This document shows, one piece after another, positions 3,352 through 20,554 of a stretch of 64,000 nucleotides of DNA. The notes below the pieces were generated by a model. The model saw only the letters and a list, made by a program, of their open reading frames with translations. It was not told where the DNA came from and did no database searches. The position numbers and the translations under genes are program-made. The stretch is from assembly GCF_014279795.1 (NCBI RefSeq), contig NZ_CP047945.1:2438572-2502571 (forward strand), written 5' to 3'. Every line of letters begins with the position of its first letter. Within the stretch, counting starts at the first letter, position 1. Origin of the DNA: Synechococcus sp. PROS-7-1 (lineage in GTDB: Bacteria > Cyanobacteriota > Cyanobacteriia > PCC-6307 > Cyanobiaceae).

Positions 3352-4073
3352 ATGGAGAAGCTGTTCAGCGCAACTGCCAACCCTGCGCCACCACGCCATG
3401 GAACTGTCAGTGTTCACCTCGGGGGAACGCCGATTCTTGACCTGGCCCTGCTCGTGCTCGGCCTGGCGCTCGTCGCCGGGATCGCAAGCCTCAGCAGCCA
3501 GATGGCCGTGAGTTTTCATCCAGAGGCCTCCACCCTCACCGGCATTGATCTCAATCCAATCCATCTGCCCGCCTATGCCGCACGCTCCAGCCTGCGCATG
3601 TTGATCGGCCTGGGCATCTCCCTAGGGATCTGTCTGGTGGTGGGCACCCTGGCTGCCCGAAATGCCATCGCCGAACGGGTGATCATCCCCTAGTCGACAT
3701 CTTGCAATCGGTGCCGGTTCTGGGCTTTCTGGCCATCACCGTGGCCTTTTTCATCCATCTGTTCCGCGGCAGCCTGCTGGGGCTTGAGGCGGCGTCGATC
3801 TTCGCAATCGTGACCGGCCAGTTGTGGAATCTGATCTTCTCTTACTACCAATCGCTGCGCACGGTGCCGAGCGATCTGAGCGAAGCAGCGACGCTTTATC
3901 GCTTCAGTGGTTGGCAGCGCTTCACCCAGCTGGATCTCCCGGCCGGAAGCATCAATCTGGTCTGGAACGGAATGATGAGCTTCGCTGGCGGTTGGTTCTT
4001 CGCCACACAAAGTGAAGCGATCAGCGTCAACAACGCTGACTACACCCTGCCGGGGTTGGGGTCCTGGGACTGA
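3352..4073 (+). pseudogene. ABC permease remnant, frameshifted and truncated
   Basis: Remains of an ABC importer inner-membrane protein of the nitrate/sulfonate type, the kind with two permease domains in a chain of about 550-580 residues. The first part (3352-3693) ends at a TAG inside AERVIIP. Adding one C to the C4 run before that TAG restores the frame and reads on without interruption as LVDILQSVPVLGFLAI through 4073. The permease loop EAATLYRFSGWQRFTQLDLP (about 3885-3944) and WNGMMSFAGGWFF are recognisable. The sequence stops at 4071-4073 after LPGLGSWD, where intact proteins continue into a second permease half. Both a frameshift and a large deletion are therefore inferred. If the frameshift is a sequencing error, the truncation remains. 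Confidence 0.82.
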
Positions 4074-4453
4074 GCGACGACAGCCTGCTGCCGTTGGCAG
4101 AAGCTGGTGTCATCCTGGGATTGCTTGAGACCAAGGGGAGTCAGGTGGAACTCACCGGCCTGGGCCGCCAACTGCGTAAAGCCGATTCCAGCGGGGAGCG
4201 GCAGTTATTGGCCAAACAACTGCGCGAAAGGATCCCCCTCGTGCAAACCGTGGAGCGTTTGCTGACTCGCAACCGACGCAGTGGCGTGAGTGGCGCCATC
4301 ATTTTGGATCTCATGGATGAACACCTCACAACCCCCCAAGTGGATCAGACGTTCCGAACCCTGGTGAGCTGGCTTCGCTTCACGGGAATCGCTCACTACA
4401 GCGACGACACACAGCGGTTTCAACGCCCTGCTGACACGAGCGAACAGATATGA
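4070..4453 (+). pseudogene. C-terminal AAA-associated domain of a lost ABC ATPase
   Basis: This stretch encodes about 127 residues that resemble the C-terminal AAA-associated domain (PF09821) carried by nitrate/sulfonate-type ABC ATPases: LLPLAEAGVILGLLE, VELTGLGRQLRKAD, LRERIPLVQTVERLL and ILDLMDEHLTTPQ. There is no Walker A, signature or Walker B motif, so the ATPase domain itself is gone. The open frame begins at the scar where the permease remnant ends but in another frame, as expected if one deletion removed the second permease half and most of the ATPase. A TTG at 4094 could start a 119-residue product. Its TGA overlaps the ATG of the lipoprotein gene, so translation through it may still serve coupling. 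Confidence 0.75.
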
Positions 4454-5682
4454 AGCGATCACTCACCCTCTTCGCAGCGGTTGGTCTGCTCAGCGCTTGC
4501 AGCAGCAGTGACGAATCCCGCTCCACCTTGCTCCGGGTCGTGCGCACGTTGCCCGCCAACGAGGTGGTGACGGGGGAGGAAAGCGCACGCGATCGCAAAC
4601 TGCTGCGCGATTTTCAAACCAACCTGCGCGCTGTGATCCCCGGACTGCGCATCCAACCCTCTCTTTATTCGGCAACCAGCGTCCAGTCGGAACTGCAACG
4701 ACAGACCAACAGTGGACTGGGACCCGACCTCGTGATCAGCGACGCCCAGACCATCCAGGCCCTGTTCGCAGCACGCCTACTCGATCCCGTCCCGATCACA
4801 CCTGAACAACGCCAAGCCATTCCAACGGAGCTACTCGCACGCGTCAGCACAGACAACGGCACCCTTACTGGATTGCCGGTGTCCCAGTACATCCAACTGG
4901 CCTGCTACGACAAACGCAAACTCAAAAGTGCACCGAAAACTCTGCGCGAACTGGCCCAGCAAAGCAGTGAGGGCAACATTTTCGGTCTCACCCAAAATTT
5001 CGAGAATCTCTATTGGAGTGTGGGCAGCTACGGCGCTGGAAAGGCGTTGATCAGTTCCCTGCGTGGGGAAACACCAACAACGCAGGATGTGAACCAGCTG
5101 GTGCAATGGCTCACCTGGCTGCGAGCAGCCAGCTTTCAGCAGAACGTTCTGTTCATGAACGATCAGGCCACCCTCAGGCAACAGCTGATCAATGGCAATC
5201 TGCATTGGATCAGCTGTTGGAGCTCCCAGCTTCCCCAACTGCGCGAGGCCTTGAAAGACAATCTCGGCGTTGGGCTGTTACCAGCGGGACCAGCAGGAAA
5301 AGCCACGCCGGTGAGCCGACTGCAGGTGTGGGGCCTCGGACGCAATTCCAGCCATCAACAGCGCTTGAAAAGCACAGAACTGATGCAATTCATCGTTCTT
5401 CCCTGGGCCCAGAAAACATGGGCTCTGCGCTATCGCACCTCCTATCCGGTCAACCCAGCCGCCGCACAAATCATCAATCGCGAAATCCCTGGAACCCAAG
5501 ACCTTTATCTGAGCACCGACGAGGAGGATGTCCGCATTGGCGATGAAATCAGAGCCGCGCTTAATCAAGATCCGAAACTTGAGCAAGCGATGCAACTCAC
5601 ACTGAATGATGTGATTTTTGGCACTGAAACCCCCAGCCAAGGCGCCGCAACACTGAACACCAAACTGGGCCCATCGTCATGA
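4450..5682 (+). CDS. solute-binding lipoprotein (copy 1), paired with MscS channel
   Basis: A 410-residue lipoprotein resembling extracellular solute-binding proteins of the SBP_bac_1 type. A signal peptide ends in a lipobox (LLSAC, Cys17). The body has the family's early DLVISDAQTIQALFAARLLDPV segment (split motif, residues about 93-115) and a later NLGVGLLPAGPAGKATPVSRLQVW region typical of the ligand-binding fold. It begins with ATGA overlapping the ATPase remnant and ends with ATGA into the MscS gene at 5679. It is clearly paralogous to the protein at 18027-19283: both contain QWLTWL or GWLTWL followed by QQNVLF/QRNISF, and LHWISC/LDWISC. No intact ABC permease or ATPase accompanies it, so an importer role is doubtful. 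The ligand is unknown. Confidence 0.85.
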   Translation: MKRSLTLFAAVGLLSACSSSDESRSTLLRVVRTLPANEVVTGEESARDRKLLRDFQTNLRAVIPGLRIQPSLYSATSVQSELQRQTNSGLGPDLVISDAQTIQALFAARLLDPVPITPEQRQAIPTELLARVSTDNGTLTGLPVSQYIQLACYDKRKLKSAPKTLRELAQQSSEGNIFGLTQNFENLYWSVGSYGAGKALISSLRGETPTTQDVNQLVQWLTWLRAASFQQNVLFMNDQATLRQQLINGNLHWISCWSSQLPQLREALKDNLGVGLLPAGPAGKATPVSRLQVWGLGRNSSHQQRLKSTELMQFIVLPWAQKTWALRYRTSYPVNPAAAQIINREIPGTQDLYLSTDEEDVRIGDEIRAALNQDPKLEQAMQLTLNDVIFGTETPSQGAATLNTKLGPSS

Positions 5683-7010
5683 CCATCACCCACCTCCTCC
5701 TGACGGTGTCCCCCCGCGACATCCTTGTGGAAATGCTGAGCTGGCTGGCCTTTCTGCAGCGCTGGTCGGTGCTGTCCCAACTGCTTGTGCTGGCTGTGAT
5801 CGTGCTTCTGGCACGCACGCGCAGCATCCAACTCCATCTCAATCGGTACCGCCTGCATCAACAGGTTCCAGAAGCGATCCGTGTTCTGCTCGGTCCTGCA
5901 CTAATCCTGATCCTTGCGGCTGTCTTTGCCACATGCCAAGCACCCTTCGGCCTGCTGCGTTATTTCGGGCTGCTCTGGCTGGGCTGGAATCTATTCACAC
6001 CCTTGAAATTACTGGTTAAACGTGTCAATCCACAGTTCCCGATCGAAGAACTTGAAAGCACATTTTTCAAACCGGTTTATGTAATCACAGCCACAGTTTC
6101 GATGCTGAGCCTGCTCGGTAGCCGCGAAAATCTCGCACGGGTCGGCATCGCCAACCTCTTTGGTGTTGAAATCACCTTGGGCAAGGTGTACACAGCGATT
6201 GTGGCGATTTATCTGATCGTCACAATTGCATCGCGCCCTGCCGCACTGATGGCCTGGGCCAGCGGCACGATCTTCGGGGTGCGGCAGCAAAACAGGCGTG
6301 GCATGGAATTGCTATTCCGTTACAGCGTGATCGCCATCGGCATCGTCAGTGTGGCGTATTACATCGGCATTAATGGCAATGCATTCATCGCCATCGCCGG
6401 TGGTTTATCGGTGGGGATCGGTTTTGGAATCAAGGAAATCATCTCCAATTTCATCAGCAGCATCTGGTTGCTGTTTGAAGGTTCCGTACGTCCTGGCGAA
6501 ATCTTGATGATCAATGGAGATCCCTGCACGGTGCGCAAGCTCGGACTCAGGGCAACACAGCTGAAGCGCGGCCGTGACGGCGCCGAACTACTGATCCCGA
6601 ACCAGACCTTCTTCACGCAGGAAGCAGCGTCCTACACAGCGGCTGAAACGGCACGTCGCGACAGCGTGGTCGTCGGAGCTGCCTACGACCATGATCCCGA
6701 TCGGGTGATTGACCTGCTACTCGCGATTGCAGAAGACCATCCCAAAGTGAAGCAATACCCACCAGCAGCAGCCTTCGTCACGGACTTTGCCGATTCGTCG
6801 ATCAACTACAAAGTGCTGTTCTGGGTGGCCAACCCTCTCGACGCCTTCGCCGTGGGCAGTGATCTGCGTAGGGAGATCTGGAAACGATTCGAGAAAGAAG
6901 GGATCACCATTCCCTTCCCCCAACGCCAGGTTTATCCCATGCAATGGCCTCCGAGTCTGCAACAGAGCCTCAACACCCAGTCAACGACTGATCAAGAAAC
7001 ACAACGCTGA
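5679..7010 (+). CDS. MscS-family mechanosensitive channel (copy 1 of lipoprotein-MscS pair)
   Basis: A 443-residue small-conductance mechanosensitive channel homologue. Several membrane helices precede the pore-lining helix (AIAGGLSVGIGFGIKEIISN, residues about 232-251), followed by the beta domain (FEGSVRPGEILMI, then VRKLGLRATQL) and an alpha/beta cytosolic end (IPFPQRQVYP). MscS proteins open on membrane tension and release ions and small osmolytes. The ATG overlaps the lipoprotein stop in ATGA, suggesting coupled synthesis. The product is closely similar to that at 19280-20554 over the pore and beta domains, including the same NDPC/GDPC loop after the pore. Expected in the plasma membrane; thylakoid location cannot be excluded. 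Confidence 0.92.
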   Translation: MTITHLLLTVSPRDILVEMLSWLAFLQRWSVLSQLLVLAVIVLLARTRSIQLHLNRYRLHQQVPEAIRVLLGPALILILAAVFATCQAPFGLLRYFGLLWLGWNLFTPLKLLVKRVNPQFPIEELESTFFKPVYVITATVSMLSLLGSRENLARVGIANLFGVEITLGKVYTAIVAIYLIVTIASRPAALMAWASGTIFGVRQQNRRGMELLFRYSVIAIGIVSVAYYIGINGNAFIAIAGGLSVGIGFGIKEIISNFISSIWLLFEGSVRPGEILMINGDPCTVRKLGLRATQLKRGRDGAELLIPNQTFFTQEAASYTAAETARRDSVVVGAAYDHDPDRVIDLLLAIAEDHPKVKQYPPAAAFVTDFADSSINYKVLFWVANPLDAFAVGSDLRREIWKRFEKEGITIPFPQRQVYPMQWPPSLQQSLNTQSTTDQETQR

Positions 7011-7109: not shown

Positions 7110-8174
7110 GTGGGATTTCTTCAGACCAATACGGGGCTAATTGTCGGGACCCTGACGCTGATCGCGGCCTGGTTTCTGCTCCACTTCCTGAGCCGACACG
7201 GACGCAACATCGGCAGCCTGATCACGCGCAGCCTGAGGCGACCGCTACTGATCGGTCTTGGCGTGTCGCTCTATGGCACATGGATCACCCATTGGGTCGA
7301 TAAGCGCATCGATGTGGTGGATCAGCTAACACTGAAGCGCCTCTCAGCCACGCTGCTGATTATCACCATCAGCTGGGCAGCTCTCAATGTCGGGCACGCC
7401 ATTCTCCAGTCGGGGTCGATGCGGCGCTGGATGCAGATGGACGATGAGCAAGACAAAGCCATGCTCATCAATCTGCTGGGACGGCTCTTCACCATTGTCA
7501 CGCTGCTGATCACAACAGCGGTTTTGATGGTGAACTTCGGCATTCCATCCGCCGCCATCGCCACCTTGCTGGGTGGCGCCGGGATTGGTTTCACCTTCGC
7601 CACGCAACAGATCAGCCAGAATTTTCTTTCCGGCTTCATGCTCTTCTTCAATCGCCCGTTCAAAGAAGGGGATTGGATCAACGTCGACGAACTGCAAGGA
7701 ACCGTGGAATCGATTGGCTGGTACTACACAAGAATTCGCACTTTTGATCGCAGGCCGCTCAATATCCCCAACTCGATTTTTGCCACGAAACCGATTGAAA
7801 ATCCTGGCCAAATGTACAACAGGCGAATTCTTGCCAATATCAGCCTGCGTTATGAAGACCTTGGCAAAATCGCTGGAATTACAGACGAGGTCCGAGAACA
7901 CCTAAAGCATCACCCCCAGATCGACCAGGAACAAATCATTCTTGTGAATTTCAATCAATGGGATGCATCATCCATCAACATGATGGTGTATTGCTTTACC
8001 AAAACGACTGTCTGGGCTGAATGGCTCAACATCCAACAATCAATTTTCCTTGATATCGCTGCCATCGTGAAGCGAAGTGACGCTGATTTCGCCTTTAACT
8101 GCACGACTCTTTACCCAGCGCCCAACATGGATATGGATGCGATTCGGGCCAGCATCACGCCAAAAGGCAATTGA
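7110..8174 (+). CDS. MscS-family mechanosensitive channel, start uncertain
   Basis: A second type of MscS homologue, 354 residues from GTG 7110, only distantly similar to the channel before it. The pore region (IATLLGGAGIGFTFATQQIS, residues about 150-169) and the beta-domain start (FFNRPFKEGDWINVDELQGTVESIG, split motif) are typical of MscS. GTG 7110 is the only usual start in this open frame, which runs back to 7032, but it lacks a good ribosome site. A better one, CAGGAG at 7071-7076, lies before a GTG at 7081 in another frame that reads NSQQTRSTAWDFF and stops at 7140. Either the start is weak or a frameshift near 7115-7130 has broken the N-terminus. A long C-terminal alpha/beta part is intact. 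Confidence 0.85.
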   Translation: MGFLQTNTGLIVGTLTLIAAWFLLHFLSRHGRNIGSLITRSLRRPLLIGLGVSLYGTWITHWVDKRIDVVDQLTLKRLSATLLIITISWAALNVGHAILQSGSMRRWMQMDDEQDKAMLINLLGRLFTIVTLLITTAVLMVNFGIPSAAIATLLGGAGIGFTFATQQISQNFLSGFMLFFNRPFKEGDWINVDELQGTVESIGWYYTRIRTFDRRPLNIPNSIFATKPIENPGQMYNRRILANISLRYEDLGKIAGITDEVREHLKHHPQIDQEQIILVNFNQWDASSINMMVYCFTKTTVWAEWLNIQQSIFLDIAAIVKRSDADFAFNCTTLYPAPNMDMDAIRASITPKGN

Positions 8175-8261: not shown

Positions 8262-11200
8262 TCAGACCATGTTGACGTTGAACTTGAAGGCATCCAACGT
8301 GCCGGAAACCTCACTGGAGACCAGCAACTGACCGGACTCATCGTCAGTTTTCACGAAAACGGAAGCCTCAGGTGAGAGGGAACCACCGGCATAGAAGGTG
8401 TGAACATGCTTCGGAGCATTCACATCGGTGATCTCATACACAGGAATCAGAGTGCTGGTGGCCCGCTCCAGTGCAATGAAGGCGAAAGAGCGATCACCCA
8501 GGGTCACGATCTCAACGTGCTCCGGTTCCACACCTTTGTCATCACTACGGCCATCGTCATAGAGGGTGTAGTCAGCAGCGATCCGATCAAGCTGATCACC
8601 TGAATCCCACACCAAGTTGCCATTCGCATCGCGAATGCTGAAGGAACGACCGCCAAAGGCCGTGATGCTGTCGGCCGTGTTCTGATCCGTGATGGTCTTC
8701 AATCGGCCTTCACCGTCACCACTCACAATCAGATTGTCGAGAGGGCCGTCGAGCTTGCCTGCACGTTTCTCATCGGAATAGAAGTCATCATCGGCGATGG
8801 CACCATATTTGGTTGTGATGAAGAATTCATCGCCTTCTTCGGCCTCAAAGCTTCCGGTGTTTCCAGCGTCGCCGGAGTACACATAGATCGTCTGGCCAGT
8901 CAGAGGGTCCTTGAATTGTTCCGTGGCATTGCCGGCATCATTGGAGCCAAAGGAGTAAGTGCCATCCTCGGGAGCCTCAAAGTTCACATCATCAGGACGC
9001 ACACGTCCGTCACCCTCATTGGCCATCAACACATAGGTCTTGCCGTCTCCTGCGATAAAGGAGTCCATGCCATCAGGCATGTAAAGGCTGTTGAAATCGC
9101 GGTCCCCAGGTTGGTAACCACCATCCTTGTCGGAGGTATCAACCGAAAGACCGTCCCAGTTCTTGGATCCAAGTCCCTTGATCGAGACAACGTCGAGCGA
9201 CTTGAGATCGACCTTCGCGACCGCATTGTTCTCCTGAAGAGTCACGAATGCATAACGGTTATCCGGTGAAATCGTGACGTACTCAGGCTCCAGATCCAGA
9301 GAAGGATTCTCCGTGGCATTCAACCCGGAGAGACGAACACCGTCAGCAAGCAGCTTCGACGCATCGAGATTATTGAAGCGGCGGTGCTTGTTGTTCAGCT
9401 TCTCCACATCGCCATTCAGCCTGAACACTGAAATGGAGCCCTCGGGGTCGAAGCCATCATCCGATCCGTAGAAATCATTGGGTTCACCCTCATTGGCCAC
9501 CACCACGTAGCGACCGTTCTCGCTCCAGGCCACAGAGTCAGGCAAATAACCCACCCGGTTGGTGAATTTCTCTTTCAGCGTGTTGTTATCACGGAATTCA
9601 TAGAAGCCAACATGACCCTTCTTGGTCTTGTCCTTCGACATCGCAACAGCGATGTATGACTTCCCGTCATCATCGGTGTACGACGCAACGGACTGCACGT
9701 CGCCGTCGAATTCGTACTCCAGAACGACTTCAGGATCAGAGAAGTCTGCGCCGTATTTCACGAAACGGACAGTTTCATCACCGCCCGAAACCGCAGCGAC
9801 ATTGGCGCCTTTCAGCCAAGTGACAATTTCGGCCCCACCAAGATCAATGCTGCTTGTGGGGGTAACGGGGGCAAACAGGCTGCTTCCAGAGAAGCCCAAA
9901 TTAACGATGCGTGCATCGGCAGGAGCTCCAAGATCCAAGGCGTTGTATGCCTTGGAAGCGGAGCCGTGGTTCGCCTTCAAGAACTCAGCCAAGGCATCCT
10001 GTTCGGTGCCGGCGGCAGCGAATGTGGACGCACCATCCGACAGTGACTGCTTCTTGAGATCAACGGGATTGATGCGGTTGAACACCTCCTGGGAAACAGT
10101 GGCTTCACCAGCAGAACCATCCAGGTTGTAGTTGGGAAAGGGGTAACTATCGCCCGCGCCGGTGTAGTTGCCGTTCTCGTCGAAACGAGGCGATGACAGG
10201 AAGTCGAGTGTCACGATTCGGAAGGTCTCCCCTGCATCGCCAACCAGCTGCCCGTCTTTGACGAGCTGGGCGATGACGGCACCGTCATCGTCGTGGATGA
10301 ATGCATCCTGAATTCGGCTGCCAACGTCCTTGGCCGGATCGAAGGAGAACTTCACTCCGGAGACCTGGGGGAAGCGACCATCCACATCGGGCAGTGCACC
10401 GATGCCGTGCTCCAGCAAGCCGACGATTTCCTGGCGGGTCAGCGTCAGCAGACGCAGGCCGTTGTTGAAAGCGAGAGTGGACTTGATGTCGTTCTGAGAA
10501 ATTGCCCCTTCGTCTTTGGAGAGTCCGAGAATGTCATCGCTCTCAGCCTCGCTCGGACCACGTGAGGAGGAGTCACCAATGCTGGCGCGGATGCCGCCAC
10601 CGTTCTTGATCGACAGCACAACCGTGGGATCGAAAGCTTTGGCCGCAGCGAGGTTGGCGTCTGCAGTGAGATTGCCCAGATTGGTTTCCTGGGTGCGCAC
10701 GCCATCAGGATCAGTGGCTTTGCCCGTCCCCGAGCGCGTGGCGTTGAGGAACACATCGGAATAGCCAAGGATTCCGTATTCACCAGATGCGATCTGCTCT
10801 CGCACTTCATTCACGATCCTGGAGATTTCAGGATCCACAAGAGCCTCAGCCTTGAGATCCACCACGCCTTGCGCGTCGGTGGCGTAGTTACCGGAAACCA
10901 CAGGGTCGTAAGAACTATCCAGCAGATTGCCGCTGGCGTCGAAATCGATTACAAAGCGACCGAGGTAGCTGTAGTCACCAGGGCCGGAAACCACGGCTGT
11001 GCGGGTGCCACCAGCATTCGTGAAGAACTGGGGATAGTCGCCCTGCTTGGTATCTCCATCACGCAGCCGGTCGTTGCTGTCGACCAAACGGGCCTCAGAG
11101 CCGCCAGCCATGATGATGTCGACGTTTCTGAGCTTCTGAGCGAGAGACTTCTCAATGTCAAGGATCTGCAGGTGCGAGGTCAGAACGACTTTGTTCAGAC

Positions 11201-11861
11201 CGGGGTTGGCTGCCACAACAGCATCCACTTCCCTTTGAATTTCAACCGCAAGGGCATCGATCTCCGCAGCGCTGAGATCCTGCGCACTCACCACTGGACG
11301 GGCCGTCACTCCATCGGTGCTCGTGATGAAAGCCAGGCCTGGAGTCGTGGCGCCGATCACACCAATTTTCTCCCCACCGCGCGTGATCACCGTTGAAGAG
11401 GTGATGGAATTGCCCTGAGGAGCCGCCCCACCAGGCTTCACCAGAGGCGACAGGTCAGCGTTAGAGGAAAAATCCAGGTTGGAACTGAGGTAGGGAAAAG
11501 TCGTTCCCCGAAAAGCAGACCCGAGGATGGAGCCCACATCCGATCCACCAGAAATCAGCTCAGCGAACGTGTCAGCACCATCGTCGAATTCATGGTTGCC
11601 GATCGCTGCCGCATCCAGACCCAGCTGGTTCTGAATTTCAATATCGGCAATGCCCTTGGTGCCATAAAGGTCCTTCGAGGCACTGAAGAACAAGCCCGGC
11701 AGATACGTGTCACCGCCGCCGAGAGTGAGGTTCGCATCAGCTCCGACGCTCTGACCGCGCAGCGCTGCCAACACGGCCGACAACCTGGGGATGTCATCAA
11801 GGATGGTATTGCTGGCTGCCGAAGGGTCAGACAGGTGGAAGAGCTGAAGGCGGAAAGCCAT
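8262..11861 (-). CDS. metallophosphatase/5'-nucleotidase with choice-of-anchor I domain
   Basis: A large acidic protein of 1199 residues, probably an extracellular phosphatase or nucleotidase. Domains in order: metallophosphatase (LQLFHLSD near residue 5, GGGDTYLPG near 48, GNHEFDDGADTF near 87), 5'-nucleotidase C-terminal domain (ETNLGNLTADANLA to VVLSIKNGGGIRASI, residues about 385-560), and a propeller-like choice-of-anchor I region (about 690-1199) with VVVANEGEPNDFY and LEPEYVTISPDNRYAFVTLQ (first part). I start it at ATG 11861 because the family usually begins directly with this first motif; an open stretch to 11957 adds an unlikely leader. There is no signal peptide, so type I secretion is plausible. 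The first metal motif reads SDPS where homologues have SDxE-type or DxH residues. Substrate unknown. Confidence 0.85.
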   Translation of the reverse strand: MAFRLQLFHLSDPSAASNTILDDIPRLSAVLAALRGQSVGADANLTLGGGDTYLPGLFFSASKDLYGTKGIADIEIQNQLGLDAAAIGNHEFDDGADTFAELISGGSDVGSILGSAFRGTTFPYLSSNLDFSSNADLSPLVKPGGAAPQGNSITSSTVITRGGEKIGVIGATTPGLAFITSTDGVTARPVVSAQDLSAAEIDALAVEIQREVDAVVAANPGLNKVVLTSHLQILDIEKSLAQKLRNVDIIMAGGSEARLVDSNDRLRDGDTKQGDYPQFFTNAGGTRTAVVSGPGDYSYLGRFVIDFDASGNLLDSSYDPVVSGNYATDAQGVVDLKAEALVDPEISRIVNEVREQIASGEYGILGYSDVFLNATRSGTGKATDPDGVRTQETNLGNLTADANLAAAKAFDPTVVLSIKNGGGIRASIGDSSSRGPSEAESDDILGLSKDEGAISQNDIKSTLAFNNGLRLLTLTRQEIVGLLEHGIGALPDVDGRFPQVSGVKFSFDPAKDVGSRIQDAFIHDDDGAVIAQLVKDGQLVGDAGETFRIVTLDFLSSPRFDENGNYTGAGDSYPFPNYNLDGSAGEATVSQEVFNRINPVDLKKQSLSDGASTFAAAGTEQDALAEFLKANHGSASKAYNALDLGAPADARIVNLGFSGSSLFAPVTPTSSIDLGGAEIVTWLKGANVAAVSGGDETVRFVKYGADFSDPEVVLEYEFDGDVQSVASYTDDDGKSYIAVAMSKDKTKKGHVGFYEFRDNNTLKEKFTNRVGYLPDSVAWSENGRYVVVANEGEPNDFYGSDDGFDPEGSISVFRLNGDVEKLNNKHRRFNNLDASKLLADGVRLSGLNATENPSLDLEPEYVTISPDNRYAFVTLQENNAVAKVDLKSLDVVSIKGLGSKNWDGLSVDTSDKDGGYQPGDRDFNSLYMPDGMDSFIAGDGKTYVLMANEGDGRVRPDDVNFEAPEDGTYSFGSNDAGNATEQFKDPLTGQTIYVYSGDAGNTGSFEAEEGDEFFITTKYGAIADDDFYSDEKRAGKLDGPLDNLIVSGDGEGRLKTITDQNTADSITAFGGRSFSIRDANGNLVWDSGDQLDRIAADYTLYDDGRSDDKGVEPEHVEIVTLGDRSFAFIALERATSTLIPVYEITDVNAPKHVHTFYAGGSLSPEASVFVKTDDESGQLLVSSEVSGTLDAFKFNVNMV

Positions 11862-12001
11862 CGAAGCAAGAGCAGACCATTCAACTAAGCCATAAATCGC
11901 AAACCAATTCATTAAGGGGCGATGAAGATCACCGCTAGAAAGCATGCAGATGCGCAAAAAGTGCGCTTGAAGACCAAGCCAATGTGCGCAGCTATACCTC
12001 T

Positions 12002-13465
12002 TCAGCCCGGTGAATTCGCTCGGTTGAGCGCGATACTGAAGCAGCTGCCCTTCCCGACAGTTGACTGAACGGACACCTCGCCTCCCATTCCCAACACGAA
12101 CATTTTCACAATCGATAAGCCAAGGCCAGAACTACTTTCGCCACGCCGGAGATTCACTCCCTGCGCACGCTTGAATCGATCGAAAATAAGCTGATGCTGG
12201 TCTTCAGGAATACCCTGGCCATGATCAACAACATTGAAGATCACCTTTTCGGCAGTCGCATTGATCCTCAACACGACCTCGCTGTCTGAGTCCGAATATT
12301 TGACCGCATTCTCTATTAGGTTGCTCAAACATTGAATCAAACGATCAGAGTCACCAATCGCAAGCAAAGAGGCTGACAGTTCACTTTCCAGAACGATCTT
12401 ACGAGCTGGATAAGCTTTTCTAGCCAGTTTGACGACCTCATTGGCGCTGGCCATACTCTCAAAAGATTCGCGGAGAATCTGGAGCTGATTACTCTCAGCG
12501 CGAATCAAATCAAGCAGATCACTTAACATTCGATTGATGCGCAGTGACTCACGATTGGCAACTTCAAGGGACTCAATCGACGAAGAGCTCAACATCGTCT
12601 CACGATTTAAAACCGATTGAATAAAACCTGATATGACCGTCAATGGCGTACGAAATTCATGAGATATTGTTGAAGCAAATTGCTTCTGCCGTGAAGAGGC
12701 CAGCCTCAAGCGTTCAACCATATGATTAAACTCCTGAAGTAGAGGAAGAAATTCAGACGGCTGAGAGTTTGTATCGAGAAACGCGGAGTCGAGCTCATTC
12801 AGTTCAACAGCTGCAAGATCACGCTGGATCGCACGCACAGGCCGAAAGATCAATCGCAGACAACCAAGCATTAAGACGGCAAGCACAAGCATCAAAACAA
12901 TTTCAGACCAAAACTTGATACGACCAATAATCACGAGCAAAGGCATTGAATACACAGGACGCAGATAGATATAGAATCCTGACTGCTCACCACCCGGCAA
13001 CTTCACTGCTTTGAGTGCAATCGCCTGATTCCCGTCGCGATTAACAATTAAAAAGCCATCATCTTCAGCGATGACTTGATTTGACCAGTCAAGCAAATCC
13101 TGGTGGGAATAATAAAGACCAGCTCCGGAAGCAGCCTGAAGGCCAGCAGAACCATAGATCCAAGCTGTTTTACCATCTTCAAAAGTGAGACCGCGCAACA
13201 GAAACTGGTAGTCATTCAAAGTACAACAATTAAAAGCACGTTCTACAGAAAAACTATCGAGGCGCTTCGTGACTACGTTGGAGGTTCGGCTCAGCTGCCG
13301 AGACATTTTGTCTTCAAGAAAACTTGTCAAAAAATACGAGAAGAGCCCGTCGGAAATAGCAGTACTGACCTGTGCTTGCGCAAGTATCATTAAAAAGCTG
13401 ATCAGGAAGAATCGCCTAGCAATCGACCAAGGACGACGGACTCGCTTAAAAATAGTTCGTGACAT
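12002..13465 (-). CDS. membrane sensor histidine kinase
   Basis: A 487-residue sensor kinase. A first membrane helix (residues about 15-38), a periplasmic domain of about 135 residues and a second helix (VLMLVLAVLMLGCLRLIF, about 190-207) are followed by a linker resembling HAMP, the phospho-acceptor box (STISHEFRTPLTVISGF, His near 276) and the ATPase domain with NLIENAVKYSD, DHGQGIPEDQ and SSGLGLSIVKMF. It should phosphorylate the regulator encoded divergently at 14506. ATG 13465 lies two bases after the stop of the PhnD-like gene; GTG 13474 is an alternative that overlaps that stop. The gene looks richer in A/T than its neighbours. The signal is unknown; the PhnD-like neighbour suggests a phosphorus oxyanion. 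Confidence 0.9.
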   Translation of the reverse strand: MSRTIFKRVRRPWSIARRFFLISFLMILAQAQVSTAISDGLFSYFLTSFLEDKMSRQLSRTSNVVTKRLDSFSVERAFNCCTLNDYQFLLRGLTFEDGKTAWIYGSAGLQAASGAGLYYSHQDLLDWSNQVIAEDDGFLIVNRDGNQAIALKAVKLPGGEQSGFYIYLRPVYSMPLLVIIGRIKFWSEIVLMLVLAVLMLGCLRLIFRPVRAIQRDLAAVELNELDSAFLDTNSQPSEFLPLLQEFNHMVERLRLASSRQKQFASTISHEFRTPLTVISGFIQSVLNRETMLSSSSIESLEVANRESLRINRMLSDLLDLIRAESNQLQILRESFESMASANEVVKLARKAYPARKIVLESELSASLLAIGDSDRLIQCLSNLIENAVKYSDSDSEVVLRINATAEKVIFNVVDHGQGIPEDQHQLIFDRFKRAQGVNLRRGESSSGLGLSIVKMFVLGMGGEVSVQSTVGKGSCFSIALNRANSPG

Positions 13466-13467
13466 GC

Positions 13468-14460
13468 TCAGCACGAGGGAAGCGATATGGTTTCATCCAG
13501 CAACTGATCAATCTCACTATGAATGCGATCTGGAAACCGCTCGCTCGGCAATTCGAAGCCAAGGTAGCCCCATTGATCCAGAACCAGTTTCCCGTTTTGT
13601 GTAGATGGATTCAATGCAACAAGGGCATCACGGACTTGATCTAGCTTGTCCATAACTTGAGGGGTAATTCCCTTTCCTGCAGCGGCAAAATAATCATTAC
13701 GACGCAAAGAACTGGTCCAAACCACACCGACCTCAGATCGAAGACTCTCCGGAACCTGTTGCAGAGGATCTCCACCAAAACTTGCAACAAACGCAAAATC
13801 AACCATTCCTTCGGCAACAAGATCAGCGAGATTATCCTGCATTGGCTCATGCAAACATCCTCCGATCAATTCGTAATCGAAACCCTGAGTCTTCATTTCC
13901 AGTAATGGCTGCAGAAAAGCTGCTCCCGAATGACGACTCCCAAACCCAACTCGCATTCCAACCAGTTGATTGAGCTTCATTGGACCAGAAAGAGACATCG
14001 ACCTCAACATGCGATGACGACCCAACAAAACCATTCGAAACGACTTTTTCTGAACGACAAGTGGCTCCACACTGGGCATGATTTGGCGTAATCGATGTCC
14101 CCCATAAACCCCTACATTAAGAACATCAATCAAACCCCGCTGCAACATTGCATGACTATGTGCGTAATTAATAGCTGGCACATACTCAATGTTAAGCCCA
14201 GTTGCTTTCTTCAGATAGCCTGTAACAACAGACATTCGCCGGTTGATTCGATCCTGCGATTGGTAGGGCTCCTCTGATATACGAAGGTCGACTTGAGGCT
14301 GTTCAGAGGATGACTCAGATGTCGTTGAGACTGGTGAACGCACGCAGCCCATCAGCATTAGAGCAGCAACGGTGCTGAGTCCAGCCTTTATTCTGCTGTT
14401 CAGCACAGTCAAGGCTCTGAAGCTTTCAATCAGCTTAGAAGCGATCGACCTTCGCGTCAC
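13468..14460 (-). CDS. PhnD-like phosphate/phosphonate-binding lipoprotein
   Basis: A 330-residue protein resembling the PhnD family of periplasmic phosphate, phosphite or phosphonate binders. The N-terminus has a signal with lipobox LMGC (Cys39). Typical features follow: RISEEPYQSQDRINRRMSVV near residue 60 (family start), YVPAINYAHSHAMLQRGLIDV (split, near 98-118), VGFGSRHSGAAFLQPLLEM and ADLVAEGMVDFAFVASFGGD. No phnC or phnE transporter genes are adjacent; the next gene, two bases on, is a histidine kinase, so a receptor role for that kinase is more likely than uptake. It is divergent from the response regulator. The region is A/T-richer than flanking genes. Ligand identity is inferred from family only. 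Confidence 0.82.
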   Translation of the reverse strand: MTRRSIASKLIESFRALTVLNSRIKAGLSTVAALMLMGCVRSPVSTTSESSSEQPQVDLRISEEPYQSQDRINRRMSVVTGYLKKATGLNIEYVPAINYAHSHAMLQRGLIDVLNVGVYGGHRLRQIMPSVEPLVVQKKSFRMVLLGRHRMLRSMSLSGPMKLNQLVGMRVGFGSRHSGAAFLQPLLEMKTQGFDYELIGGCLHEPMQDNLADLVAEGMVDFAFVASFGGDPLQQVPESLRSEVGVVWTSSLRRNDYFAAAGKGITPQVMDKLDQVRDALVALNPSTQNGKLVLDQWGYLGFELPSERFPDRIHSEIDQLLDETISLPSC

Positions 14461-14505
14461 CTCACCGGGAAGGTGCTTACAGTTTGCTCACGAATCCGCT
14501 TCAAG
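14461..14505. promoter_or_regulatory. divergent control region with imperfect 11-base-spaced repeats
   Basis: The 45 bases between the divergent PhnD-like and response-regulator genes must hold both promoters. Reading plus, CTTACAGT (14476), CTCACGAA (14487) and GCTTCAAG (14498) are spaced 11 bases apart, the spacing used by OmpR/PhoB-type regulators that bind tandem half-sites. The repeats match each other only in part and match the cyanobacterial Pho box poorly, so this is a tentative autoregulatory site. Confidence 0.25.
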
Positions 14506-15195
14506 ATGGAAAGCCATCAAACTCAAATTCTGATTGCAGATGATGAAGCAAACATCCTGATGCTTTTAAACATGGAGCTTGAGGCCGAAGGGTACAGCGT
14601 GCTTGCTTGCGACGACGGATCGAAGGCACTGGCGCAAATCCGTGAATCACGACCGGCACTCGCTCTGCTGGATTGGAACATGCCAATGATTACGGGCCTT
14701 GACGTCTGCAGACGGTTGCGGGAGACAGGCAATCAACTTCCGGTGATCATGATCACAGCCCGCGATGAAATGGACGATCGCATTGCTGCTCTGGAGGCTG
14801 GTGCTGACGATTTCATTGCCAAACCCTTCAACATCCGCGAAGTACTAGCCCGTGTGAAAGCACTTTTAAGGCGCAGCTCCACAGCCAGCGCAGATCATCT
14901 CAATTTCGGCGATCTTCAACTCAACGGCCCAGAACGTTGCTGCACCTATGCCGGAACACCACTCAATCTCACCGTCAGAGAGTTCGACCTACTGGAGTGC
15001 TTCATGCGCAATCCACGCCAGGCCCTGAGCCGTCCTCAATTAATTCAGCACGTTTGGGGAGAGGACTACTTCGGTGACGACAACGTTGTGGATGTCTATG
15101 TGCGCTACTTACGCAAGAAGCTTGAAGACGTCGTACCCGAGCGCATTATTCAGACAATCCGCGGCATCGGGTTTGCCCTTCGGCTTGAAGCGTAA
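14506..15195 (+). CDS. OmpR-family response regulator
   Basis: A 229-residue two-domain regulator. The receiver domain has acidic residues DDE at 12-14, the phospho-acceptor Asp56 in LALLDWNMP and Lys near 106 in FIAKPF. The C-terminal winged helix shows LTVREFDLLECFMRNP, VVDVYVRYLRKKLE and IIQTIRGIGFAL. It is the evident partner of the divergent kinase at 12002-13465. I take ATG 14506; an in-frame GTG at 14473 would add 11 residues and run into the promoter region. Its stop abuts the valS stop on the other strand with no bases between. Targets are unknown; the nearby phosphatase is a candidate. Confidence 0.93.
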   Translation: MESHQTQILIADDEANILMLLNMELEAEGYSVLACDDGSKALAQIRESRPALALLDWNMPMITGLDVCRRLRETGNQLPVIMITARDEMDDRIAALEAGADDFIAKPFNIREVLARVKALLRRSSTASADHLNFGDLQLNGPERCCTYAGTPLNLTVREFDLLECFMRNPRQALSRPQLIQHVWGEDYFGDDNVVDVYVRYLRKKLEDVVPERIIQTIRGIGFALRLEA

Positions 15196-17940: not shown

Positions 17941-17983
17941 GGAAGCGGTGCGATGCGTGCGCCATGCTCGCAAAGAGGAGAAC

Positions 17984-18026
17984 GGACCAACTCAAGAAGG
18001 ACCGACTTAAGAAGGACCAACTCACA
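17984..18026 (+). repeat. three near-identical 15-base repeats before the lipoprotein gene
   Basis: GGACCAACTCAAGAA (17984), GGACCGACTTAAGAA (17999) and GGACCAACTCACA (18014, last unit cut short by the ATG at 18027). Each junction creates an AAGAAGGA ribosome-site-like sequence, the last one 10 bases before the start codon. Because the unit is 15 bases, changes in copy number would not shift a frame but would change spacing and number of upstream ribosome-like sites. Confidence 0.8.
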
Positions 18027-19283
18027 ATGGCGTCAGCATCTCCACCCTCCATCGTGAATCTGCGGATCTCAGCTGGACTGCTGCTTGTTGCCCTGGTTCT
18101 GAGTGGTTGCAGCGCGTTGTCCGGCAGCAAACCGGTGATGCTGTACATGGCCATGGTGATTGGCAAAGACGACCGCATCAGCAGCGACACCCAGAGAGAC
18201 GCAAGAAAACGGGTCGATCTGATCGTGTCGAGCTTTCAGAAGCTCTATCCAAATGTTCAGGTGCAGCTGGCTCTCTACCAGCGCTCGAAGTTGATCTCCG
18301 AACTGCGCAGGCGCAACGCCGCTGATCTTGGACCCGACCTGGTGCTCACCGATGCCCAGCAGGCGAAAGACCTGCTTCGCGAAGGACTCACGGACCCCTT
18401 GCCCCAGACCGAGCGCAACACGGTTCAGACCGATCCCACCCTCATGGAACAGGTGCGTCTCACCGATGGGCGCCTCGCCGGGCAGCCCTTGGTGATGTTC
18501 CCCCAAATCGCCTGTTTCAACACCCAGGTGATCCAAAAGCCACCGGAAACCTTGAACGAACTGCTGGAAGTCGGTGCTGCCGGCGCCCGCGTGGGTCTTC
18601 CCGTGAACATGGACGAGGTGTTGTGGACAGCAGGAAGCCTCAACGCTTTGCCAGCACTGGCTGCAGCCTCCCGAAACCAGGCATTGTCAGCAGAAGAACG
18701 CGATCGCATCACTGGTTGGCTGACCTGGCTTCAACAAGCGAGCAATCAACGCAATATCAGTTTCTTTGAAAACCAAGGACAGCTGACCACACTGCTTGGC
18801 AGGCGTGAACTGGATTGGATCAGCTGCACTTCAGACATGTTCTTTCGTCTGCGAGAGCAACTCGGCGACGACTTCGGAATCGCTCCCTTGCCCAATGGGC
18901 CCGACGCACCCGCCGCACCAGTACATCTGCTGCGTGTTCTGGCCCTGGGCCGGGACTCCAGCAGCAGCCAACGCTCCATGGCGATTGCACTGAGCGATTA
19001 CGTCACCAATCCGCTGGTCCAGAGAAATCTCTCGCTGTTATCAATGTCGTTCGTGCCCGTGAATCCAGACGTAATGATTCCCACGAAAAGCTCAAAAACG
19101 CTGGCATCACTAGAAAAGGCGCTCCAAGCATCGCAAGTTCAAGGCGACAATCTGAACGCGATTGACCAAGACGGACCGCTCTCCAGGCGGATGACCAACC
19201 TGCTGATTCCGCTCGTGTTCGGTGTCAGCCAGCCGCGAACGAGCACGGATGAACTGATTCCGATTCTGGGCCAGGGGTCATGA
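18027..19283 (+). CDS. solute-binding lipoprotein (copy 2), paired with MscS channel
   Basis: A 418-residue lipoprotein (lipobox LSGC, Cys28) paralogous to the product at 4450-5682. Shared landmarks include LGPDLVLTDAQQAKDLL against LGPDLVISDAQTIQALF, RITGWLTWLQQASNQRNISF against LVQWLTWLRAASFQQNVLF, and DFGIAPLPNGPDAPAAPVHLL near the end of the binding fold. ATG 18027 is chosen since it follows the repeated AAGAAGGA site and gives a short, normal signal peptide; an open frame from 17964 would add a charged leader. It ends in ATGA overlapping the MscS gene. As in copy 1, no ABC permease or ATPase is adjacent. Ligand unknown; expected to be membrane-anchored facing the periplasm. Confidence 0.85.
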   Translation: MASASPPSIVNLRISAGLLLVALVLSGCSALSGSKPVMLYMAMVIGKDDRISSDTQRDARKRVDLIVSSFQKLYPNVQVQLALYQRSKLISELRRRNAADLGPDLVLTDAQQAKDLLREGLTDPLPQTERNTVQTDPTLMEQVRLTDGRLAGQPLVMFPQIACFNTQVIQKPPETLNELLEVGAAGARVGLPVNMDEVLWTAGSLNALPALAAASRNQALSAEERDRITGWLTWLQQASNQRNISFFENQGQLTTLLGRRELDWISCTSDMFFRLREQLGDDFGIAPLPNGPDAPAAPVHLLRVLALGRDSSSSQRSMAIALSDYVTNPLVQRNLSLLSMSFVPVNPDVMIPTKSSKTLASLEKALQASQVQGDNLNAIDQDGPLSRRMTNLLIPLVFGVSQPRTSTDELIPILGQGS

Positions 19284-20554
19284 ATCAACTGTTCTGGGAA
19301 ATCATTGGCTGGCTGGGCTACCTGCAGCGCGCCTCGATCGTGTTTCAGCTGCTGCTGATCATTGTTCTGGTAACGCTCTGGCGCTGGCTGCGGAAACATC
19401 CCAAGCTGGCGAAAGTCCCCAGGCCGCTTCGCCTCCTGATCGCCCCAGCTGGACTGGGTCTGATCAGTGCCTTCGCCAGGAGCCTGGGCTGGGATGCAGG
19501 GTTGCTGACCTACCTGAGCTTGAGCTGGCTTGGGTGGAGCTTTCTGAGCTTGCTGGATGGCCTGCTGCAGCAACTGATGCCTGCACAACGCGTGCATGAA
19601 CTGCAGAGTCGACTGATCAAGCCTCTGTACCTGATCACGGTGGTACTGATGTTCATCAATCGGCTCGACAACGTCAACGATTTGTCGGTGATCGAACTCG
19701 GCCAAGTGTTCGGCGTTTCGCTGACCTTGGGCAAATTGTTCACCTCCCTTCTCGTGAGCTATCTGCTGCTCGTGGGTACGGGCCCCCCTGCAGCGGGCGT
19801 GTCCTGGTTGATGCAAAAACTTCTCGGCTATTCCGAGGGAAGCCGGAAGGCTGTGGAGCTGATCATCCGTTATGTGGTCGTTGGTATCGGAGTCACGGCC
19901 GTGGGATTTCACATCGGCCTGAATGGCACCGCTCTGGTGGCCATCGCCGGTGGACTCTCCGTCGGCCTGGGCTTTGGGATCAAGGAGGTCTTTTCCAACT
20001 TCATCAGCGGCATCTGGCTCCTGTTTGAAGGATCCGTCCGTCCGGGCGAAGTGCTGATGGTCGATAACGACCCCTGCGAGGTGCGCAAGCTTGGCCTCAG
20101 AGCCACCCTGCTTTGGCGCGATCGCGACAACGCGGAACTCCTGATTCCCAATCAGATGTTCTTCACAGCTCAGGCCACCAGTTACACCGCCACTGACCGC
20201 CTCCGCCGGAGCGAGATCCGCATTGGTGCCGCCTACCGGCACGATCCACGCCAGGTGTTGCAGCTGCTCGAGGAAACCGCCCTCAACGTTCCCAGGGTGT
20301 TGAAGGCTCCCGCCCCTAGAGCCTTGCAGGTGAAGTATGGAGACTCAGCCATCGAGTACTCCTTGCGTTACTGGATCGCCGATCCCATGAGCAACATCGG
20401 CATCGTGAGCGAGGTGAATCAAGCGATCTGGACGGCCTTCAAACGCGAAGGAATCGAAATTCCCTTCCCGCAGCAGGTGAACACGATTCGAGAACGGCCC
20501 TCGCTTATGAGCGGGAGAGACGCGCAAGAAAAGCCTGATAAGACCCGGCATTGA
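19280..20554 (+). CDS. MscS-family mechanosensitive channel (copy 2 of lipoprotein-MscS pair)
   Basis: A 424-residue MscS homologue, paralogous to that at 5679. Both start with a W-G-L-x-x-L-Q-R type helix, and the pore helix AIAGGLSVGLGFGIKEVFSN and FEGSVRPGEVLMVDNDPCEV are near-identical to copy 1. Its ATG overlaps the lipoprotein stop (ATGA), the same arrangement as copy 1. The last 50 bases overlap the 3' end of the convergent oxygenase gene. The tail after IPFPQQVNTIRERPSL is short and charged. Function: tension-gated release of small solutes; whether the lipoprotein modulates it is unknown. Confidence 0.92.
   Translation: MNQLFWEIIGWLGYLQRASIVFQLLLIIVLVTLWRWLRKHPKLAKVPRPLRLLIAPAGLGLISAFARSLGWDAGLLTYLSLSWLGWSFLSLLDGLLQQLMPAQRVHELQSRLIKPLYLITVVLMFINRLDNVNDLSVIELGQVFGVSLTLGKLFTSLLVSYLLLVGTGPPAAGVSWLMQKLLGYSEGSRKAVELIIRYVVVGIGVTAVGFHIGLNGTALVAIAGGLSVGLGFGIKEVFSNFISGIWLLFEGSVRPGEVLMVDNDPCEVRKLGLRATLLWRDRDNAELLIPNQMFFTAQATSYTATDRLRRSEIRIGAAYRHDPRQVLQLLEETALNVPRVLKAPAPRALQVKYGDSAIEYSLRYWIADPMSNIGIVSEVNQAIWTAFKREGIEIPFPQQVNTIRERPSLMSGRDAQEKPDKTRH

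Follow-up and report, generated by a model that had tools for sequence, protein, structure and literature searches.

A solute-binding lipoprotein gene and an MscS-type channel gene form a conserved pair in cyanobacteria

In a 64,000-nucleotide stretch of the complete 2.57-Mb genome of the picocyanobacterium Synechococcus sp. PROS-7-1 (G000:C1:2438572-2502571; hereafter the window), a gene for a MalE-type solute-binding protein (SBP), a lipoprotein, lies directly upstream of a gene for a channel of the MscS superfamily, and this arrangement occurs twice. The SBP–MscS pairing is conserved in many cyanobacteria and in a few other bacteria. The genuine functional pairing put forward in a sequence-only reading of the window has held up, and is strongly supported by a scan that starts from the channel (MscS-first), the channel tree, the fidelity of SBP and channel partners, a motif at the channel N terminus and a probable partial fusion. 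On balance we favor the reading that the two genes encode one bipartite channel, in which an SBP clamshell with an external ligand would tune MscS-type gating.

Results

Two SBP–MscS pairs in the window

The features of the two pairs are the following.

4450-5682, + strand: SBP1, MalE-type solute-binding lipoprotein (Pfam SBP_bac_8, E 7.9e-25, 88.6 bits against a cut-off of 27)
4498-4500, 4903-4905 and 5215-5217, + strand: codons of Cys17 (lipobox LSAC), Cys152 and Cys256 of SBP1, from the translation
5679-7010, + strand: MscS1, MscS-superfamily channel with an MscK-like core, 443 residues (Pfam MS_channel_1st/2nd/3rd)
5679-5682, + strand: ATGA overlap of copy 1, with the MscS1 start codon inside the SBP1 stop, from the sequence
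5760-5780, + strand: codons of the R28..V31..Q34 motif (near-invariant alignment columns), immediately N-terminal to, or at, the first transmembrane helix of MscS1
17964-19283, + strand: SBP2, second lipoprotein, likely start at 18027, lipobox LSGC (sub-threshold SBP_bac_1, 21.2 bits against 26)
19280-20554, + strand: MscS2, channel partner of SBP2 (Pfam MS_channel domains; tree position among SBP-linked channels)
19280-19283, + strand: ATGA overlap of SBP2 and MscS2, from the sequence
19328-19348, + strand: R17..I20..Q23 motif of MscS2, from the sequence

These coordinates, together with the Pfam matches, bear out the ATGA-coupled lipoprotein and MscS pair that the sequence-only reading had described at 4450-7010, and its recurrence at 18-20.5 kb is found as SBP2 and MscS2 (17964-20554). 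MscS1 belongs to the MscS superfamily, with all three MS_channel domains over their cut-offs and, in the sequence and alignments, the glycine-rich pore helix GGLSVGIGFG. In MscS2, the beta and C-terminal domains are over cut-off, and MS_channel_1st reaches 22.6 bits against 23.1. SBP2, with its sub-threshold Pfam match, is placed in the family only through its similarity to copy 1 (31% identity, E 4.4e-57 in a pairwise comparison independent of the family profile); it also matches the SBP family profile at E 1.6e-155, but is among the 17 sequences from which that profile was made. Both copies carry the two marks of the proposed family, namely an SBP gene directly upstream and an R..V..Q-type channel N terminus.

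Conservation of the pairing

Since the SBP profiles were built from linked SBPs and are circular to that extent, the decisive test is a scan with channel sequences only. We searched one genome for each of 84,980 species with an alignment of six channel proteins (A5) that holds no SBP sequence; as all six came from linked loci, the question put by the scan is whether linkage extends to their relatives. Among the best 80 of 461 relatives, an open frame matching the SBP profile lies immediately upstream on the same strand in 77, with a gap of more than 100 nt at a few loci (e.g., L123). The three exceptions are L131, with a broken SBP, L096, with a remnant, and L173, which begins at a contig end. 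The open reading frame (ORF) at L096:2862-3992 is chimeric, with an unrelated N-terminal part, an SBP-like C-terminal tail and no Pfam SBP call; it comes from a metagenome-assembled genome (MAG) and could reflect a deletion or a misassembly. The 80 loci are mostly from Cyanobacteriota (including Microcystis, Planktothrix, Crocosphaera, Xenococcus, Synechocystis salina, Cyanobium and Synechococcus), Chloroflexota (including Anaerolineales and Caldilineaceae) and Acidimicrobiales. In 12 genomes, long channels at E 1e-81 or better are linked wherever this can be judged and weaker or short MscS proteins have no SBP, the dividing E value having been drawn after the fact. In 26 genomes, 167 matches to the MscS beta domain stand against 43 SBP-family matches at E 9.3e-46 or better, so most MscS genes are without such an SBP partner. 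A contig of a Rhodopirellula MAG (UBA8648; L172/L193) carries an MscS–SBP–MscS arrangement close to picocyanobacterial copies in the channel tree, which reflects transfer or, more likely, contamination.

Searches that start from the SBP give the same picture. SBP1 has matches in 32 of 60 genomes (the window's own included), all from the family of the window, and in none of the 23 genomes from other families of the class; a channel follows directly downstream in all 30 loci of the genus and family (L005-L034), of which the window is one and L018 is counted with a channel that is partial at a contig end. A profile of 17 SBPs, all linked, splits 291 Cyanobacteriia genomes cleanly, 24 of them (13 from the window's family, 11 from other families) matching at E 7.3e-48 or better and the next genome at E 2e-14. 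The channel adjoins the SBP in 23/23 evaluable loci of these 24 genomes (L081 stops at a contig end), as against 0/6 ordinary SBP loci at E 2e-14 and weaker, judged in 1.5-kb flanks. A further 30 loci, many of them places found before, are paired in 29/29 evaluable cases. Matches of middle strength to the SBP profile were seen in G295:C155 (E 4.3e-28, with stops) and G177:C76 (E 3e-21), and a plasmid search with SBP2 returned one weak match over 26% of the query, an annotated SBP of Priestia megaterium (E 3e-4). Adjacency is thus common across many genomes and not a rarity outside this one, and chance, which the sequence-only reading had already thought unlikely, is ruled out by the SBP-first (30/30 and 23/23) and MscS-first (77/80) locus counts.

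The two genes are also closely spaced. Among 141 unique pairs, 55 share an ATGA overlap, 16 overlap otherwise and 56 are separated by 0-30 nt, with three at 31-100 nt, eight at more than 100 nt and three without a start codon; the spacing lies between -20 and +50 nt in 126/138 pairs, where use of the start codon nearest the SBP stop favors short distances.

Channel phylogeny and partner fidelity

One branch of a 90-channel tree (Shimodaira–Hasegawa-like approximate likelihood ratio test support, 98) separates the 69 linked from the 21 unlinked sequences, and SBP linkage requires a single change compared with a mean of 19 on shuffling. The tree was made by a quick method and has some unlinked rows on very long branches; its unlinked set consists of 20 of 49 listed sequences plus the window gene at 7110-8174, with 15 from Chloroflexota and only two cyanobacterial. 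Picocyanobacteria carry up to four paralogous pairs (e.g., G017 and G025). In 50 pairs from L035-L065, four SBP groups correspond to four channel groups with no partner swaps, and the two clusterings agree with an adjusted Rand index of 1.0 at k=3 and 4 and 0.97 at k=5 and 6. Over 134 pairs, SBP and channel distances give a Mantel r of 0.84, reached by 0/999 permutations and partly reflecting shared descent. In many relatives a third SBP–MscS pair, missing from the window, stands between copies 1 and 2 (e.g., L036:11014-13523, L038:8412-10921 and L040:8328-9707), and some genomes of the genus hold a fourth, distant pair, either well away from the cluster or on a different contig (L061, L062, L063, L064 and L065).

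Anatomy of the channel and the binding protein

The MscS1 model (mean predicted local distance difference test score [pLDDT] 88.1; predicted template modeling score 0.66) has approximately seven transmembrane helices, as inferred from the model. Foldseek ranks Escherichia coli MscK first, and MscK also gives the longest alignment with a solved structure: residues 28-426 of MscS1 align with MscK 637-1097 (Z 16.5, 364 residues, a large rmsd of 11.0 Å, 23% identity), and E. coli MscS ties with it in Z (16.3, 267 residues). Because the match starts at MscK residue 637, the channel looks like an MscK that lacks the first helices and the periplasmic domain. An R..[VI]..Q motif in the N-terminal segment is present in 166/171 linked channels and in 7/50 unlinked ones. 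The linked channels that miss it are L057 and L170 (overlong frames), L113 (R..F..Q), L131 (masked) and L088, and five of the seven motif-bearing "unlinked" channels (L096, L172, L193, L173 and L065) are a remnant, at a contig edge or in fact paired. We propose that the R..V..Q segment may be the docking site of the SBP.

Two genomes, G266 and G295 (loci L088/L240 and L086/L241), depart from this layout in that the first helix is missing from the channel and the SBP is extended at its C terminus by a segment with a single hydrophobic helix. Comparison of this SBP helix with the channel first helix by hhalign gave a probability of 69 and P 4.4e-5, with R..I..Q in register. A first-helix profile matches 169/172 linked channels, missing L086, L088 and L131 (masked); as 74 channel rows went into the profile, many of these matches arise by construction. 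Probably the boundary between the two genes has shifted beyond the first helix in G266 and G295, such that the SBP carries a channel helix. If the first helix is indeed fused to the SBP, the two proteins would touch there, with the SBP side outside, and the arrangement also fits an outside N terminus of the channel. No ORF matching both profiles (E 1e-20), that is, no full SBP–MscS fusion, was found in loci L035-L239.

The AlphaFold2 model of SBP1 (copy 1; mean pLDDT 92.3) has a full two-lobe MalE-type fold; GacH (3jzj; Z 33.4, 357 residues, 3.7 Å) is tied with other MalE-type chains as the closest structure. In 82 aligned SBPs, Cys152 and Cys256 are both present in 74, both absent in eight and never found singly, the pattern expected of a disulfide. 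P143, W189 and P278 are invariant and Q149 is found in 67/82. A lipobox is present in the translations of both window SBPs, and the strict pattern in 106/141 SBPs; the remainder mostly show a looser lipobox by eye, with a few N-terminal helices without Cys and some rows that are fragments. These tether signals, lipobox or N-terminal helix, suggest that the SBP sits on the cytoplasmic membrane. Pfam finds three SBP_bac_8 domains per chain in the Chloroflexota loci L135, L140 and L166 and two in L141, and other Chloroflexota SBP chains are of similar double length.

Genomic surroundings and an ABC relic

Three further features lie next to the first pair and outside it.

3352-4073, + strand: pieces of a broken NitT/TauT-type ATP-binding cassette (ABC) permease, a relic (BPD_transp_1 in 3702-4073)
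4094-4453, + strand: AAA_assoc_C remnant of an ABC ATPase, a relic (PF09821, E 3.2e-22)
7110-8174, + strand: third MscS-family gene, a neighbor without SBP link (Pfam; tree; R..V..Q motif absent from the translation)

The 3' end of the decayed ABC gene overlaps the SBP1 start by an ATGA, and the broken permease precedes it; in G010, the closest sampled relative by SBP1, an open 613-residue permease frame occupies the position of the relic permease. The expectation of the sequence-only reading that ABC genes would be absent stands only in part: copy 1 does adjoin the relic, and relic pieces were matched at 1/21 other SBP1 loci compared, with no piece at the remaining 20. The overlap raised the possibility that SBP1 stems from the ABC importer whose remnant adjoins it; as a general explanation, this was rejected on the 1/21 count. 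For 132 flanking proteins drawn from 40 loci, BPD_transp_1 does not appear in the 25 families shown and could match four of them at most, and the sampled flanks hold no co-encoded MalFG-type permease with its ATPase. MalFG-type permeases go with the MalE-type SBP fold, and this relic belongs to the NitT/TauT type instead. Elsewhere in the genome PF13416 has three more matches, which, viewed with 1.5-kb flanks, stand beside a permease (L001 and L004) or a response regulator (L003); L001, also beside a Glyco_transf_20 gene, is probably the glucosylglycerol system.

Hitch-hiking with a larger conserved cluster is ruled out, as the flanking genes differ between lineages, and the Pfam domains of 10 neighbors give no common pathway that points to a ligand. 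The three genes between the pairs in L038, considered as an importer, proved to be an ABC-2 type exporter (ABC2_membrane_6 twice and ABC_tran). In that interval the window has a 1231-residue protein (8262-11957) with choice-of-anchor I and 5'-nucleotidase C-terminal domains. The MscS-family gene right behind pair 1 (7110-8174) is kept in most relatives compared and sits on a very long branch of the channel tree, outside the SBP-linked branch. Farther along, at 12002-15195, a PhnD/selenate-type SBP gene (13468-14460, - strand) overlaps a histidine kinase gene (12002-13474, - strand); the divergent gene at 14473-15195 looks like a response regulator and, with the SBP and the kinase, perhaps forms an SBP-sensing two-component system.

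Discussion

A bipartite channel and its rivals

The genomic evidence supports well the view that the SBP is a stable subunit of the channel, which we regard as very likely, and, given such a subunit, ligand-dependent gating would be a good deal more probable than its absence. In the bipartite channel that we favor, the SBP would be tethered to the cytoplasmic membrane from outside and would dock where the membrane paddle of the channel lies outermost, at the R..V..Q segment and first helix. A heptameric channel would bear a crown of seven SBP chains, each with one, two or three SBP domains, in place of the MscK periplasmic gating ring. Closure of the clamshell on a small external ligand would then pass a signal to the first helix and shift the tension threshold for opening, so that release would answer both membrane tension and periplasmic chemistry. 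Tuning by an osmolyte-type ligand, as the sequence-only reading had it, is plausible and fits the retained MalE-type fold and the MscK precedent; our guess from that fold is that a glycoside-like compatible solute is the most likely ligand. More tentatively, these pairs may constitute a new class of ion channel, an MscS-type channel with an obligatory separate clamshell lipoprotein subunit (up to three binding domains per subunit) that integrates tension and extracellular solute and comes in up to four non-interchangeable, ligand-specific versions per cyanobacterium.

Several observations weigh against this picture. SBP genes that look broken by frameshifts or an in-frame stop stand beside an open channel frame at L087 (G315; frameshifted), L030/L060 (G030) and L131, and a sister group of long Chloroflexota channels is without SBP (L194, L197-L199, L203, L206 and L209), both of which imply that such channels can work alone. 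The probable partial fusion is confined to two related genomes, 70% identical, with weak helix similarity; the first-helix profile matches only one SBP, that of L086 in G295, and weakly (E 0.0035; 2.2e-4 in a smaller set), and does not match the G266 SBP (L088). SBP and channel distances among paralogues of one locus are uncorrelated (r 0.08, 25 pairs). SBP positions 97-101, which align with what we take to be the sugar contacts of E. coli maltose-binding protein, vary widely across the family, in an alignment too uncertain to name contacts, so that paralogues may differ in their binding and some may have lost it. Finally, a channel of some kind resembling A5 occurs in 32 of 251 genomes of the Chloroflexota phylum set and in 6 of 198 of the Acidimicrobiales class set; among the fetched loci, linked channels were seen in the center genome only, which makes the system rare in both sets.

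The variable positions 97-101 would also suit a structural crown, in which the SBP fold would serve, as a ring or brace in the periplasm, to assemble or stiffen the channel, ligand binding being lost or irrelevant. Tandem SBP repeats would suit a scaffold as well, and the accessible text on MscK describes periplasmic domains of this channel and of family members and names no small-solute pocket. A pure brace, however, needs no clamshell, and even distant members retain the full two-lobe MalE fold, with invariant W189 and P143 and with Q149 present in 67/82 sequences; we consider this explanation rather unlikely. A less probable proposal still, and one to which we give little weight, is an SBP-dependent facilitator, with the SBP, as SBPs do for tripartite ATP-independent periplasmic (TRAP) carriers, delivering solute to, or recapturing it at, a channel that acts mainly as a passive path. 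SBPs normally deliver cargo to membrane transporters and MscS-type channels do pass small organic solutes, but the channel retains the MscS core, the pair comes without a coupled transporter and ion gradients would break down if solutes entered passively by a wide pore.

Lipid or transmembrane tethers and a carbohydrate-type fold could also equip the SBP to bind a fragment of peptidoglycan or surface polysaccharide and report to the channel on wall strain instead of a soluble osmolyte. In the accessible part of a review, the variety of periplasmic domains among MscS homologues is connected to a possible co-evolution with components of the wall (PMC4005912). Such an envelope sensor or tether is very unlikely, given that the SBPs scanned with Pfam have no wall-binding domain and the pairs occur in both Chloroflexota and cyanobacteria, whose envelopes differ. 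Of the explanations considered, the one we find hardest to credit is that the SBP belongs to an ABC importer and adjoins the channel incidentally. The decayed permease and ATPase end that precede and overlap SBP1, and the open permease frame in G010, speak for it; the near absence of relic pieces from other SBP1 loci, the NitT/TauT rather than MalFG type of the relic, the ceiling of four possible permease domains in the 132 flanking proteins and the channel-adjacent SBP at 77 of the 80 MscS-first loci speak against it. Service to a cognate ABC system encoded elsewhere is likewise unlikely, because the SBP and channel genes stay together as a unit of two while their neighbors change.

Comparison with known systems

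Several systems share parts of this design with the bipartite channel proposed here. MscS1 has an MscS-superfamily core like that of E. coli MscK (KefA), but MscK holds its own periplasmic domain of approximately 500 residues and 11 helices in one chain, whereas here a separate lipoprotein of MalE fold is encoded, and MscS1 scores 136.2 bits against a cut-off of 991 for NCBIfam MscK, outside that family. According to the accessible text of PMC9653487, MscK gating depends on tension and on external K+, and its gating ring in the periplasm is heptameric. The SBP shares its Pfam family and its fold over the full length with the ABC importer proteins MalE, GacH and UgpB, and differs from them in having no ABC permease or ATPase partner, in being co-encoded with a channel and, in most members, in a covarying Cys pair. 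In GluR0, an extracytoplasmic amino-acid-type SBP fold is fused in one chain with a K+ channel pore. The SBP–MscS pair likewise ties an extracytoplasmic solute-binding fold to an ion channel in cyanobacteria; unlike GluR0-type receptors, it does so with separate genes, a MalE-type SBP and an MscS pore. For the GluR0-type prokaryotic glutamate receptor channel of Synechocystis, the accessible text of PMC13099474 gives a role in volume control.

Our pair would also share a ligand-controlled MscS pore with the bacterial cyclic nucleotide-gated (bCNG) channels, differing in that the SBP is extracytoplasmic and separate. In bCNG channels the pore is controlled by a fused cytoplasmic cyclic-nucleotide domain and an intracellular ligand. 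SBPs of TRAP carriers, chemoreceptors and SBP-sensing kinases act on membrane partners other than ABC transporters; here the partner is an MscS-type channel. Among the matches listed for the open-access literature (titles and abstract starts, with subscription papers mostly outside its scope), we found no description of an SBP–MscS pair, and the accessible portions of Synechococcus genomics papers mention MscS genes without an SBP partner or merely cite an MscS paper.

Bacterial mechanosensitive channels are seen mainly as tension valves, and only a few are known to respond to a chemical signal. The SBP–MscS pair points to an emergency valve for which opening may be governed by an extracellular small molecule as well. 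If this is true, mechanosensitive channels would come to include a chemically tuned type, with a binding protein as its dedicated subunit, and the pair would offer a simple model for an SBP clamshell that drives a channel pore, as in glutamate receptors. It would also bear on the release of organic osmolytes by abundant marine Synechococcus, a source of dissolved carbon.

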